From Nitrospira lenta (GTDB lineage Bacteria > Nitrospirota > Nitrospiria > Nitrospirales > Nitrospiraceae): DNA of 64,000 nt. The notes beneath the pieces are model-generated. The model was not told the origin of the DNA. It did not search any database and saw only the letters and a program-made list of their open reading frames with translations. Location: NCBI GenBank assembly GCA_945865525.1, contig CAMBDY010000009.1:1-64000 (forward strand), read 5' to 3'. Shown piece by piece: positions 22,419 through 30,491 of this stretch. A program made the position numbers and the translations under genes. Positions within the stretch are counted from its first letter, which is position 1. Each line of letters opens with the position of its first letter.

Positions 22419-24074
22419 TCACGCGCCGTGGTCCTTGGCGAGTAATTTGTATTCGATACTATCGGCCAACGCTTGCCAGCTCGCCTCCATGATGTTCTCG
22501 GAGACGCCGACCGTGCCCCATTTCTCCGTCTGGTCACCTGATGCAATCAACACCCTGACCTTCGATTCCGTCCCGCGATCGGCCGACAACACCCGCACTT
22601 TATAATCAAGCAATTTAACTTCTTTGAGCTGGGGATAGAATTTCTCCAAGGCTTTCCGCAAGGCATGGTCGAGCGCATTGACCGGGCCGGCTCCGGCCGC
22701 AGCCGCATGTTCCACCCTATCGCCAACTTGCACCATAACCGTGGCCTCCGACACCATGGCACCCTGATCCTGCTTTTTCTCAACGATCACCCGGAACCCT
22801 AAGAGGTGAAAGGAGGGCGTATGCGTTCCCATCGCCTTCCGCATGAGCAACTCGAAGGAGCCTTCTGCCGCCTCAAATTGGTAGCCTTGGCTTTCACGCT
22901 CCTTCAGCACCTCAATCAATTCTTGGAGCTTGGCGTGATCCTTGTCTAATTTGATCCCGTAGGCCTCGACCTTTTCCATCAACCCGCTTCGGCCGGCCGC
23001 GTCCGAGAGCAACATCCGCTGGCGGTTCCCGACTAGCGACGGACTCACATGCTCATAGGTCGCGGCATTCTTTAGCACCGCATGGATATGGACCCCGCCC
23101 TTATGGGCAAAGGCCGAGTCGCCGACATACGGCTGATGCGTGTTGGGCATGAGGTTGGCGATCTCGGTCACGAATCCGGACACCCGCTTGAGATGGCTCA
23201 ACCGATCGCCCAGAACCGGCCGTTGCATCTTGAGCTCAAGATTGGGAATGATCGAACAGAGATTGGCGTTCCCGCACCGCTCGCCGATCCCATTGATCGT
23301 CCCTTGTACTTGCAGGATGCCGGTTTCGATCGCCATCAACGAATTGGCGACGGCCATTTCACAATCGTTGTGGGCATGAATCCCCAAGGGCACGGCACAT
23401 TCACGCCGCACGACCTGGCAGATCGCTTTAATTTCCCACGGCATCGTCCCGCCATTGGTGTCGCAAAGAATCACCCGTTCGGCGCCGGCGGCCACGGCCT
23501 GACGAATGGTCTCTAAGGCATAGTCGGGATTCGTCTTGTAGCCATCGAAAAAATGCTCCGCATCGTAGAACAGTCTTCGGTCTTTGGAGCGGAGAAAGGC
23601 CACGGAGTCGCTGATCAATTCCAGATTTTTCGTAAGAGAAATGTTGAGCGCATCGGTGACGTGCAGCGACCAGCTCTTGCCAAAGAGGGTGATTACCTGG
23701 GTCTCGGCCTCCAACAGCGACTTGATATTCGGATCGTTCTGGACCGCGTTACTGGCTTTTCTCGTTGAGCCAAAGGCCACGACCGTCGCCGTCTGCAACG
23801 GAACCGTCTTGATCATCCGGAAAAACTCGATATCTTTGGGATTTGCCCCGGGCCACCCGCCCTCGATGAACTGGACGCCCAGCCCATCGAGCTGTTGCGC
23901 GACCCGCACCTTGTCCTCCACCGAGAAACTAACGTCCTCGGCCTGGGCTCCATCGCGCAGGGTCGTATCGTAGATTTCTAGTGCCGGCTTCACGGCAGGC
24001 GCAGGTACGCCTGGCGCTGACGCCGGGGCCTGCTTACCTTTTGAAGAGCCTGATGAAGGTGTCTTTCGAGCCAT
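22419..24074 (-). CDS. cimA: (R)-citramalate synthase (CimA / LeuA-like)
   Basis: EIYDTTLRDGAQAEDVSFSVEDKVRVAQQLDGLGVQFIEGGWPGANPKD; HAHNDCEMAVANS; C-terminal LeuA dimer domain. Confidence 0.92.
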   Translation of the reverse strand: MARKTPSSGSSKGKQAPASAPGVPAPAVKPALEIYDTTLRDGAQAEDVSFSVEDKVRVAQQLDGLGVQFIEGGWPGANPKDIEFFRMIKTVPLQTATVVAFGSTRKASNAVQNDPNIKSLLEAETQVITLFGKSWSLHVTDALNISLTKNLELISDSVAFLRSKDRRLFYDAEHFFDGYKTNPDYALETIRQAVAAGAERVILCDTNGGTMPWEIKAICQVVRRECAVPLGIHAHNDCEMAVANSLMAIETGILQVQGTINGIGERCGNANLCSIIPNLELKMQRPVLGDRLSHLKRVSGFVTEIANLMPNTHQPYVGDSAFAHKGGVHIHAVLKNAATYEHVSPSLVGNRQRMLLSDAAGRSGLMEKVEAYGIKLDKDHAKLQELIEVLKERESQGYQFEAAEGSFELLMRKAMGTHTPSFHLLGFRVIVEKKQDQGAMVSEATVMVQVGDRVEHAAAAGAGPVNALDHALRKALEKFYPQLKEVKLLDYKVRVLSADRGTESKVRVLIASGDQTEKWGTVGVSENIMEASWQALADSIEYKLLAKDHGA

Positions 24075-24129: not shown

Positions 24130-25371
24130 TTACGGTCCCCGTCGACCCTCGACCGGCGCTTGATCCAACCCGAATGCGGTGTGGAGCGAACGCATCGCGA
24201 GCTCCACATACTTTTCATCGATGACGCAGGAGATTTTGATCTCCGACGTACTGATCATGAGAATATTGACGCCGCTCCTGGCGAGGACCTCGAACATCTT
24301 CGCTGCCACGCCCGAATGTGAACGCATCCCAACGCCGACCAGCGAGACCTTGGCGATCGCCTCGGTCACGGCCACCGATTTCGCCTCGACCCCCTTCGCG
24401 ACCGCCTGGATGATCGGCAGGGCCTTCGCGAGGTCCACCCGTGGAATCGTAAAGGACATATCCGTCAGGCCGGACTGGCTCATATTCTGGATGATCATAT
24501 CAACGTTGATATTGGCCTCGGCCACCGGCCCGAAAATTTTCGAGGCAATGCCCGGCTTGTCCGGCACACCCACGATCGTGATTTTGGCCTGATTCCGGTC
24601 CCCGGTGACACCCGACACGGCGACCGCTTCCATATCCTCATCTTCACGTGTCACGAGCGTCCCCTTTCCTTCTTTGAAACTGGAGTTCACCTCCACCGGC
24701 ACATTGAACTTCGCGGCAAATTCGACGGAGCGGCTCTGCAGCACTTTCGCCCCCAAGCTGGCCATCTCCAACATTTCCTCGTAGGAAATCTTGTCGATGC
24801 GGCGCGCCGCCGGAACAATATTGGGGTCCGAGGTGTAGACGCCATCGACGTCCGTAAAGATGATGCAGCGATCGGCCTTCAAGGCCGCCGCGAGCGCCAC
24901 CGCCGTCAGATCAGAACCACCCCGCCCCAGCGTCGTGACGTCCGACTGTTCGTTGATCCCTTGAAACCCGGCCACCACCGGGATCACCCCTTTCGACAGG
25001 GCCTCACGGATGCGCTCGGCCGCGACCTTGGTAATGCGCGCTTTCGTATGGGCGCTGTCGGTCATGATCCCGACTTGGCGTCCCGTAAACGATTTCGCAT
25101 CGAGTCCACGGACTCGCAAGGCCATCGCCAACAAGGAGATGGTCACCCGCTCGCCCGTCGACAGGAGCATGTCCAGTTCGCGATCGTCCGGAAGTGCCGT
25201 CACCTCATACGCGAGCTTGAACAGCCGATCCGTTTCGCCACTCATCGCAGAGAGGACGACGACGACACGATGCCCCTCCTTGTGCGCTCGCTCCACGCGC
25301 TCCGCGACGCACTGGATCCGCTCGATCGTGCCCACGGATGTGCCGCCATATTTCTGAACAATCAGCGCCAC
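24130..25371 (-). CDS. lysC: Aspartate kinase
   Basis: [36 protein letters not shown]; two ACT domains. Confidence 0.96.
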
Positions 25372-25376
25372 AACCG

Positions 25377-26615
25377 TCAGGACCCTTTTGCAAATAATCG
25401 GACGACGAACTTCGTCGCATCACGGGGCGGCACGGTCGACGCCTGCGCATCGGCCTCGGTAAATTTTCGTTGGCTCGCGGCGGCGGAATCGACGGCGCTG
25501 TCTTGATAGGCAAAGAACCCCGGTCCCGCTGCCCCTTGGCCTTGCGGCACGGCACTCGCATCACAGAAGGCCGCAAGGCGGTAGGGACCGACGTGCGCCA
25601 GCCCTTCACGCAATGGCCCAACCAGTTCGCGATCGACCGCTTCGATCGCCTTCACCTTGGCGGCGACGTCCGATCCATAGACGACCTCATCTGGCAACTC
25701 CACATGCACGTAGGCAAAATCTTTTTTCTTAAGACTCTCCAGCGCGACCGCCGCGTGGGTCCGCAGATCCCCGCTGGCCAGCCGCGCACCATCCACCGCC
25801 TCGAGCCCAGCCATCAGGCCGAGCCCCCGATGGACATCACTCTGCGACACGACCGTACCGGTCATCTTAAACCGCTCCGCTAGGCTGGGCCAGAACAGGG
25901 CCCGGCCCTGACCCCAGAGCCACAGGCAATTAGCGGGCTTCTGCCCCGCCTTGCTCCGCTCCTCATTCAGGGGATGATCGCGCAAGATTTGAAATGACGC
26001 GTCCATGAGCTTCCATAAATGGTCCGCCCCCTCTCCCGTCGGTAACGCCTCGGCGATCGGCCGGCCGACCCACGATTGCGGATCCTGACAGACTGCGCGC
26101 ACCTTCCCGTTGACCCATACCATGAGATGGCGGTGACCTAAGCCAGGATAGAACTGAATCATCTCGGACCCGAGCTGTTCATTGATCGCTTCAATCAATT
26201 CACGTGCCTCTTCCGTGGCAATCAACCCGGCGGTCGCATCGTCCATGGTCACATGTGGCCCCAGCTTCTTGATCTTATCCAATCCCCCGTTTCCCGCGGA
26301 CGCTGCGGCTCCCAACGTGACCATCGTGCAACGATAGACCACATCCTGCTCGCCAACCGCAACGCCGCGGCTGGCGGCTTCGAATGGACCGGGGCCCTGA
26401 TAGTATTGCTTACGGTCGTAGCCGAGGATGGCCGTCCCCATCAACCCGCTCCCTCCCCGCGCGCCCTCAGGCGCCGCAGCGAGGAGCCCCAGCTCTCCCT
26501 CTTTCGCAAGACGATCGAGATGAGGCGTCGAGGCCGCCTGCAGAGGAGTCTGTCCGCCCAATTCCTGCCGAGGCAGGTCGGCCATCCCATCGGTATGGAG
26601 AATCACATATTTCAT
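25377..26615 (-). CDS. Cofactor-independent phosphoglycerate mutase-like protein in Thr operon (proposed homoserine kinase-like family; several active-site residues appear degenerate)
   Basis: [45 protein letters not shown]; located between lysC and thrC. Confidence 0.85.
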
Positions 26616-26637: not shown

Positions 26638-27696
26638 CTACACCCTTAAAAGACGAGCGACATCCTCCCGCGTCGCTCTAACGGTTTTCGGCTGAACCGA
26701 TACGCTAATCGCCGTCTCAGCATCTTTCAATCCATGGCCGGTCAAGGTACAGACTACCGTCTCGCCGTCGCGAAACCTGCCCTGCTGGCTCAACTTGATC
26801 ACGCCGGCCACCGACGCAGCGGACGCCGGCTCGCAGAAGACGCCTTCTGTCGCCGCCACCATCCGATAGGCCTGGATAATTTCCTCATCCGTCACCGAAT
26901 CCATCGCCCCACACGATTCCGTCACGGCATTCAACGCGTCGCACCAACTGGCTGGATTGCCAATCCTGATTGCCGTGGCCACGGTCTGCGGATTGTCTAC
27001 GATATGGCCCAGCACGATCGGCGCCGCACCGGACGCTTGAAACCCCATCATCCGAGGCAGTTTCGTCGATTGATGGGCCGCACGGTATTCCTGATAGCCC
27101 CTCCAATAGGCCATAATATTGCCCGCGTTCCCCACCGGCAGGACATGGCGGCTCGGGGCATCGCCGAGCTGATCGCAGACCTCCATCGCGGCCGTCTTCT
27201 GCCCTTCGATCCGATAGGGGTTCAGCGAGTTGACCAGCTCGAGGTGATGGCTAACCGACAGTTCCTTCACAATGGTCAAAGCCTGGTCAAAGTTCCCCTC
27301 GATCTGAATGACCGTGGCCTGGTGCATCATGGCCTGAGAGAGTTTGCCCATCGCAATCTTCCCGGCAGGGATCAACACATAGACCGCCAGACCCGCCCGC
27401 GCGCCATAGGCTGCCGCCGAGGCGGACGTATTCCCCGTGGACGCGCAGATGACCGCCTTTGCGCCGGCCTCGACGGCCTTCGAGATCGCCAGCGTCATAC
27501 CGCGGTCCTTGAACGATCCCGTGGGATTTGCACCCTCGATTTTCAAATAGAGATCGATACCAGGCGCAATCTGCTCCGCCAACCTCGACGCCCTGATGAG
27601 TGGCGTATTGCCTTCCCCTAACGTCACTACCGGGGTGCGGTCGGTCACAGGGAGGAACTTCCGATAGGCTTCGATCAGGCCAGGCCAACGAATCAT
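26638..27696 (-). CDS. thrC: Threonine synthase
   Basis: [44 protein letters not shown]. Confidence 0.95.
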
Positions 27697-27700
27697 GACA

Positions 27701-29014
27701 TCACTCGTCCTGGCCTTCGACGCGAATGAGCGTCGTCGGCTCGGCAATAAAGGCCTGCTGGTTAATCGCGCGTAAGGCCGCCTGGACATCGCGCTCCATG
27801 GCCATATGGGTCTTGATTACAACCGGGACCGTCTGTCCGTCGCGCCGTCCCTGCTGAAGAACGGAGGAAATACTGATCCCACACCGGCCCAATTCTCCCG
27901 CGATCTGAGACAAGACGCCAGGGCGGTCCAGCACCATAAAGCGGAGGTAATAGAGCGAGCTAATCTCCTCTATCGGCCGCATGCGAAGCGAACGGCGCTG
28001 CTCCTGCGGGAACGACGCGGGCGGCACGCGCCCCACCGCGCCCGTTAACAGATTACGCGAAATGGCGATGAGGTCGCTGACCACGGCGCTGCCAGTCGGC
28101 ATGGATCCTGCCCCGCGGCCATAGAGCACCACGTCCCCAACGGCATCACCCACCAATTGAATCGCGTTGTAGACTCCGTCGACCTGGGCGAGCGGCGACG
28201 ACGCCGATAGCATCGTGGGATGCACGCGGGCTTCGACTTCGTTGCCCACCAACTTGGCAATCCCCAACAGCTTGATCGTACAGCCAAACTCTTTGGCGTA
28301 GGCGATATCGAGCGGCGTAATGTGGGTAATCCCTTCGGTATACACCTCTTTAAAATTGACCGGTGTCCCATAAGCCAGCGCCACTAGGATCGCCAATTTG
28401 TGGGCCGAATCGATCCCGGCCACATCAAACGTTGGATCCGCTTCGGCATACCCCGCCTGCTGCGCGTCGCCGAGCACCGCGTTAAAGCTTTGGCCTTCAC
28501 TGGTCATGCGCGAGAGGATATAGTTGGCCGTCCCGTTAATGATCCCGTAAATGGATTGGATGGTATTAGCCGCCAGTCCTTCCCGTAGGGCCTGGATGAC
28601 AGGAATCCCTCCGCCCACACTCGCTTCGAACCCGATGTCGACGCCCTGACGTGAGGCCGCGGCAAAAATTTCTTCTCCATGCAATGCGAGCAAGGCCTTA
28701 TTGGCGGTCACAACATGTTTGCCAGCCGCAATGGCGTCTAGAATGATGCGTTTAGGGAAATCGTAGCCCCCGACCAACTCGACCACGATATCGATCGACG
28801 GATCGTTCAGAATCTGCTTCGCATCGGTTGTGAGGACCCCAGGCGGCAGAGCCAGCCCCCGATCTTTCGTCACATCTAGGTCCGCAATCCGAACAATCTC
28901 AATTGGTACACCGACACGGCGGCTGATGACCGCAGCATTCGCGAGAAGAATCTTGGCGACCCCGGTACCAACCGTGCCAAGCCCGATGAGGCCGATGCCG
29001 ACGCGCGCGCTCAT
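27701..29014 (-). CDS. hom: Homoserine dehydrogenase
   Basis: [49 protein letters not shown]-terminal ACT. Confidence 0.96.
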
Positions 29015-30207
29015 GCTTCAGCCCCCTTCAGCTTCAAGGCCTTGCGAATACCGCGCACGGCCTGCCGAGTACGATGTTCGTTTTCAACGAGACCAAAACG
29101 CACGTACTCGTCTCCGCCTTCACCGAATCCAATCCCAGGAGACACCGCAACTTTAGCCTCGCGGAGCAGGAGCTTGGAAAACTCCAACGACCCCATCGAC
29201 CGATACGGCAAGGGAATTCTGGCCCAGACGAACATCGTTGCCACCGGCTTCGTCACCTGCCATCCGATGCGGTTCAGGCCGCCCACCAACACGTCACGAC
29301 GCTTCTGATACCGCAGTATCGTCTCATTGACGCACTCTTGCGGCCCATTGAGAGCAATGACGCTGGCGATCTGCAACGGCTGGAAAATGCCGTAGTCAAG
29401 ATAACTCTTGATCTTGGCCAGTGCGCCGACGACTTCGCGATTCCCGCAACAGAAGCCCACGCGCCAGCCCGGCATATTGTAGGCCTTGGATAACGTATAG
29501 AACTCCACGCCGACATCCTTGGCGCCGGGAGCCTGCAAGAAGCTCGGCGCCTTATAGCCGTCGAAGACCAAGTCGGCATAGGCCAGATCGTGAATCACAA
29601 TCACGTTGTGCTCTTTGGCAAAGGCCACAATTTTCTTGAAAAACTCAAGATCCACCACTGCGGTGGTGGGATTGTGCGGAAAATTGATTACCAAAATCTT
29701 CGGGCGAGGAAATGTTTGGCGATACGCCTTCTGTAGCTCTTCGAAGAAGTCGCTGTCTTGGCGCAACTCGATGCCACGGACTTCGCCGCCCGCAATGATA
29801 AAACTGTACATATGGATGGGATAGGTCGGCGTCGGCGTCAGGACCACATCGCCTGGGCCAATCAAGGCCAAGGCCAGATGCGCCAACCCTTCCTTCGAGC
29901 CGATCGTGACGATCGTCTCAGTCTCCGGATCCAGCTCCACGTCATAATTGCGTTTATACCAGCCCGCAATCGCATGTCGCAGCTTCGTAATGCCACGCGA
30001 GGCCGAGTAGCGATGATTCTTCCCCTTCCGCGCCGCCTCGATCATCTTCTCGACGATATGGCTCGGCGTTGGTTGGTCGGGATTCCCCATGCCGAAATCG
30101 ATAATGTCTTCGCCCTGTTGGCGCGCCTCAAGCTTGAGACTCTGCACCTGAGCGAAAACATAAGGCGGTAGCCGTTTGATGCGATAAAATCCGTCGCCGA
30201 GTCCCAT
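29011..30207 (-). CDS. PLP-dependent class I aminotransferase (AlaC-like)
   Basis: [53 protein letters not shown]; adjacent to hom. Confidence 0.88.
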
Positions 30208-30491
30208 ATATCCTTTGCCGACAATGCCCCTACACCGGAGGCGTGAAGCAACCACCCGCCCCCCCTTAATCAGGGCGTTCATTCTAATGGCGAGGGGGGG
30301 GTTGAGTCAAATTATGCCGTGATTCTATGGGGTTCGACATTCGGCCCCCCAAAGAAACTGGGCCAGCCAGATGGCCCTCCCCCCTCCCAGTCCTTGCTCC
30401 TCCCAGCCAATTTCTGCTACAACTAGCACGCGCTTTGACTCATCATGCAACGCAGCTTTTCCTCACCTCACATCGCCATAATGGAGAATCC

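Follow-up and report, generated by a model that had tools for sequence, protein, structure and literature searches.

A phosphoglycerate mutase-like protein with a degraded metal site in the threonine operon of Nitrospira: a probable former homoserine kinase, perhaps kept for its cap domain

Results

The window analysed here is a stretch of 64,000 nucleotides from a 1.8 Mb assembly (completeness 99.74%); the closest named record among the loci compared is a Nitrospira lenta MAG, with 91% identity. Statements on the window genome as a whole are based on family searches. The minus strand carries a threonine operon of the order ala-hom-thrC-X-lysC-cimA, in which X is the gene under study. The cluster begins with a gene for an alanine/LL-DAP-type aminotransferase (29011..30282), followed by hom, encoding homoserine dehydrogenase with an ACT domain (27701..29014), thrC for threonine synthase (26638..27696), X (25377..26615; 412 aa), lysC for an aspartate kinase with ACT domains (24130..25371) and, downstream of lysC, a citramalate synthase-like gene named by eye from its sequence (22419..24074). 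X lies 22 bp from thrC and 5 bp from lysC. The coordinates and strand of X were right on re-check, as was the arrangement described in a previous sequence-only reading, i.e. alaC-like, hom, thrC, PGM-like and lysC genes on one strand with short gaps. The listed thrC ORF (26638-27789, minus strand) begins too far upstream and overlaps hom; translation likely starts at Met 32 of this ORF, at about 27696, and thrC is therefore free of overlap with hom. Gaps of around 1100 bp that were measured between thrC and X most likely arose because the thrC query was too long. No Rfam element reached threshold in the window. At the very start of the window, on the plus strand, lies a thrH gene cut by the contig end (3..380).

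By profile scan, the X protein scored 326 bits against TIGR00306 (apgM; cut-off 320), 317.9 bits against TIGR02535, below the curated cut-off of 446.3, and 336 bits against PRK04200, below the cut-off of 426; its Pfam matches were PhosphMutase and Metalloenzyme. X is located within a threonine operon, the genomic context of TIGR02535, and the tree indicates common descent with intact TIGR02535 members. It is thus orthologous by tree and synteny to the TIGR02535 proteins (ThrB2, e.g. BT2402), with which it shares length and operon, but it differs from them in falling below the family cut-off and in having lost three of seven ligands. The best sequence and fold matches were the archaeal ApgM proteins 2zkt, 3idd and 3kd8, which share the iPGM-type fold; both the GSD and the D..GH motif can be read from their aligned sequences, in contrast to that of X.

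To evaluate the active site, seven columns were read from an alignment to 35 distinct intact orthologues; we take these columns, assigned via the iPGM/ApgM motifs, to be the metal ligands and the nucleophile of intact members. All seven residues were present in 35 of 35 distinct orthologues from the other classes of the phylum. The X protein keeps four of them (D9, S56, D309 and D352) and has lost three histidines: H313, the canonical His of DEAGH, is replaced by Tyr (codon 25677..25679), H353 of DHPT by Ala (25557..25559) and H361 of RTHT by Gly (25533..25535), all on the minus strand. The earlier motif readings (GGSGLMG, DEVVYGSD and others) were correct, and the degraded metal site that they suggested is confirmed by the alignment. 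Within the order, the number of ligands kept was 2-5 in the own genus, 1-5 in the other genera of group f1, 0-3 in group f3 and 5-6 in group f2, so that loss extends up to all seven. Proteins of f1 and f3 never kept more than five, none had the full set, and the last histidine was absent from the states listed for them. In f2, Asn always replaced the Asp of the 352 column, and Gly stood in the Ser column of three of six proteins. In the own genus, D309 was kept in 31/31, D352 in 30/31 and D9 in 28/31 proteins. Since the subset retained differs between species, no set of ligands is shared throughout the order. Four further residues that are invariant in intact proteins, R75, N97, H131 and Y161, are also replaced in the order. 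On these alignments, the X protein appears to be catalytically inactive.

Searches recovered X from 81 of 101 relatives; named records of the nitrite-oxidising genus Nitrospira carry it as well, among them the N. defluvii chromosome. The order ala-hom-thrC-X-lysC-cimA was constant across the order wherever contigs reached, and an intact homologue occupies the same operon position in another class (L212). In the tree (quick search, SH-aLRT support), the order forms one clade inside the intact family, with f2 branching first. Three lineages (g24, g25 and g29) have hom-thrC-lysC without X and keep ThrH; the X protein is dispensable there, given that the gene was lost. Frames were open in almost all matches among the 101 relatives other than two: the copy at G084:C10:275974-276894 (L078) contains four in-frame stops, and that of G070 is broken into two frames. 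An assembly or reading error was rejected as the source of the altered sites, as many genomes show the same states. Outside the order, the ThrB-carrying genome of group f10 (G259) has an operon copy lacking three ligands; as f10 falls outside the order's clade, this ligand loss is separate. The f5 genome G209 combines ThrB with an intact copy.

Selection was evaluated by pairwise Nei-Gojobori estimates rather than by a branch model. Within the genus, dN/dS of X was 0.118, compared to 0.06-0.07 for hom, thrC and lysC. The cap region (residues 73-258; 25842..26399, minus strand) is under strong purifying selection, with a dN/dS of 0.087 versus 0.143-0.147 for the core. The other f1 genera gave 0.151 for the cap versus 0.214-0.319 for the core, while the intact relatives gave 0.11 versus 0.076-0.085. 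Identities of cap and C-terminal core were 0.66 and 0.44 in f1, 0.59 and 0.27 in f3, and 0.61 and 0.62 in intact proteins. The core of X has thus sped up in its evolution, while constraint on the cap equals that seen in intact relatives. E41, K117, R138, N145, E146, Q147, E151 and Q154 are near-invariant and specific to the order. The AlphaFold model is of high confidence (mean pLDDT 91.3), weakest at residues 351-370, the former ligand loop, and at the extreme C-terminus; its fold is still of the iPGM type (2zkt_B, TMq 0.72).

The ThrH noted previously at the start of the window was confirmed, although only its C-terminal 125 aa are present; the fragment scored 164.8 bits against NF010109 (cut-off 133) and 161.7 bits against TIGR02137 (cut-off 223.4). 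A full-length ThrH from the order could be aligned over its entire length to that of P. aeruginosa (1rku/1rkv), and ThrH is close to the solved structure 1rku. The P. aeruginosa protein is of the HAD type and unrelated to X; its described activity is that of a phosphoserine:homoserine phosphotransferase. GHMP-type ThrB (TIGR00191) was not found in the window genome (best match 31 bits, cut-off 168) and passed the cut-off in 0/101 relatives, while ThrH passed in 84/101. Neither thrB_alt nor SerB exceeded the cut-off in any of 41 genomes (the window genome, G000, and 40 relatives). Of 198 genomes from the phylum, 93 had a TIGR02535 match over the cut-off, 34 had a ThrB match over the cut-off, and ThrH was present in 55. 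TIGR02535 over the cut-off never occurred together with ThrH (0/198), and with ThrB in two genomes, G209 and G107. Within this set ThrH was found in the order of the window only; its exclusion with intact TIGR02535 may for this reason reflect a single event, and the order-wide pattern is weaker than the counts suggest, with f10 adding one more event. In the separate set of relatives, the f2 member L059 reached 493 bits against TIGR02535 with altered ligands and has ThrH in its genome, an intermediate state. Together, the gene-presence pattern across the phylum supports the earlier suggestion of ThrH as a possible source of homoserine phosphorylation.

No second PF01676 match was found in the window genome, so that here a spare apgM or gpmI is absent along with ThrB and thrB_alt. 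In relatives, the two such PF01676 proteins that were scanned proved not to be spare apgM copies: that of a same-genus genome (L197:992-2200, minus strand) is a phosphopentomutase, and that of an f2 genome (L200:488-2077, plus strand) a true iPGM. The window genome encodes a dPGM over the TIGR01258 cut-off (G000:C3:53415-53996; L177:1492-2097, plus strand), which is likely its glycolytic phosphoglycerate mutase.

Discussion

The explanation that we favour, and hold to be probable rather than secure, is that X descends from a homoserine kinase that was displaced by ThrH and is retained as a non-catalytic protein for the sake of its cap domain. X would have been inherited vertically from an intact TIGR02535 gene ('proposed homoserine kinase', ThrB2) in the same operon. 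The ancestor of the order would then have gained ThrH, which would have taken over the formation of O-phosphohomoserine by transferring phosphate from phosphoserine to homoserine. Released from catalysis, the TIGR02535 protein would have shed the metal ligands, and a large part of the constraint on the phosphatase-type core would have gone. It would nevertheless still be folded, with its gene between thrC and lysC, and be kept for a non-catalytic job of the cap, most likely the binding of an enzyme of the pathway (Hom, ThrC, LysC or ThrH) or of a pathway metabolite. Displacement by ThrH is the part supported by the genomic patterns; a binding or regulatory role of the cap is one that we infer. 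Displacement in turn rests on the homoserine kinase activity proposed for TIGR02535. GapMind reports that BT2402 is required for threonine-free growth, yet it failed to complement a thrB mutant of E. coli (PMC7311316); a later study predicted ThrB2 from gene patterns (PMC9026213).

Several observations would also suit a relic without selected function, heading for loss and retained for now through polarity in the operon or because its translation is coupled to that of lysC. X evolves faster than its operon neighbours, the ligands lost differ between species, the gene is gone from g24, g25 and g29, the G084 and G070 copies are interrupted, and the distance to lysC is about 5 bp in most members. 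However, a dN/dS of 0.12 for the gene as a whole and 0.087 for its cap, open frames in almost all other matches, order-specific near-invariant residues and a confidently predicted fold argue against decay; a pseudogene is accordingly disfavoured, and we regard a relic as unlikely, albeit worth keeping in mind. The same variability of ligands bears on the opposite possibility, namely that X still works as a homoserine kinase by means of a rebuilt active site. Its operon position, a genome lacking ThrB or thrB_alt over the cut-off and the retention of D309, D352 and D9 in most of the genus would be in keeping with such an enzyme, but the order has no ligand set in common, R75, N97, H131 and Y161 have been replaced as well, and some lineages without X still have hom, thrC and ThrH. 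A rebuilt kinase is, from the sequences, decidedly unlikely. The 'altered enzyme' of the sequence-only reading is likewise unlikely, since no common ligand set exists; its alternative, a 'regulatory pseudoenzyme', fits the purifying selection kept on the cap domain as far as the pseudoenzyme is concerned, while regulation would be an additional step.

Concerning the source of O-phosphohomoserine, ThrH may also, or mainly, be a phosphoserine phosphatase, because no SerB passes the cut-off. If ThrH were the order's phosphoserine phosphatase only, another kinase would act on homoserine, the account of X as a pseudoenzyme being otherwise unchanged; a shikimate-kinase-like homoserine kinase is indeed known from Desulfovibrio (PMC5764234). 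Against this stand the gene-presence pattern in the phylum and P. aeruginosa ThrH, described with both activities according to the title of Singh et al. 2004 as cited in PMC5764234. We consider a phosphatase-only ThrH highly improbable, and ThrH probably makes O-phosphohomoserine in this order. A glycolytic phosphoglycerate mutase, finally, is suggested by nothing but the apgM family resemblance of X; with three metal ligands lost, a threonine operon as context and a dPGM in the genome, which makes a glycolytic role unlikely, we rejected it as scarcely credible.

If X is a displaced homoserine kinase kept for its cap, it might be an order-wide, long-lived pseudoenzyme that, in Nitrospira and its relatives, is dedicated to regulating or scaffolding the Hom-ThrC-LysC branch through this domain. 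We put this forward tentatively, as an idea that could well prove wrong. In the literature searched, we found no description of such a control layer or of this pseudoenzyme, and nothing to the point on threonine synthesis in Nitrospira. The labels phosphoglycerate mutase and homoserine kinase on these Nitrospira genes are probably wrong. X provides a case of a protein shedding its catalytic residues while one domain remains constrained. For the TIGR02535 family, erosion of the active site together with ThrH in this order, and separately with ThrB in f10, is evolutionary evidence for homoserine kinase activity, and the matched intact and eroded orthologues offer a way to test this unproven step of threonine synthesis.
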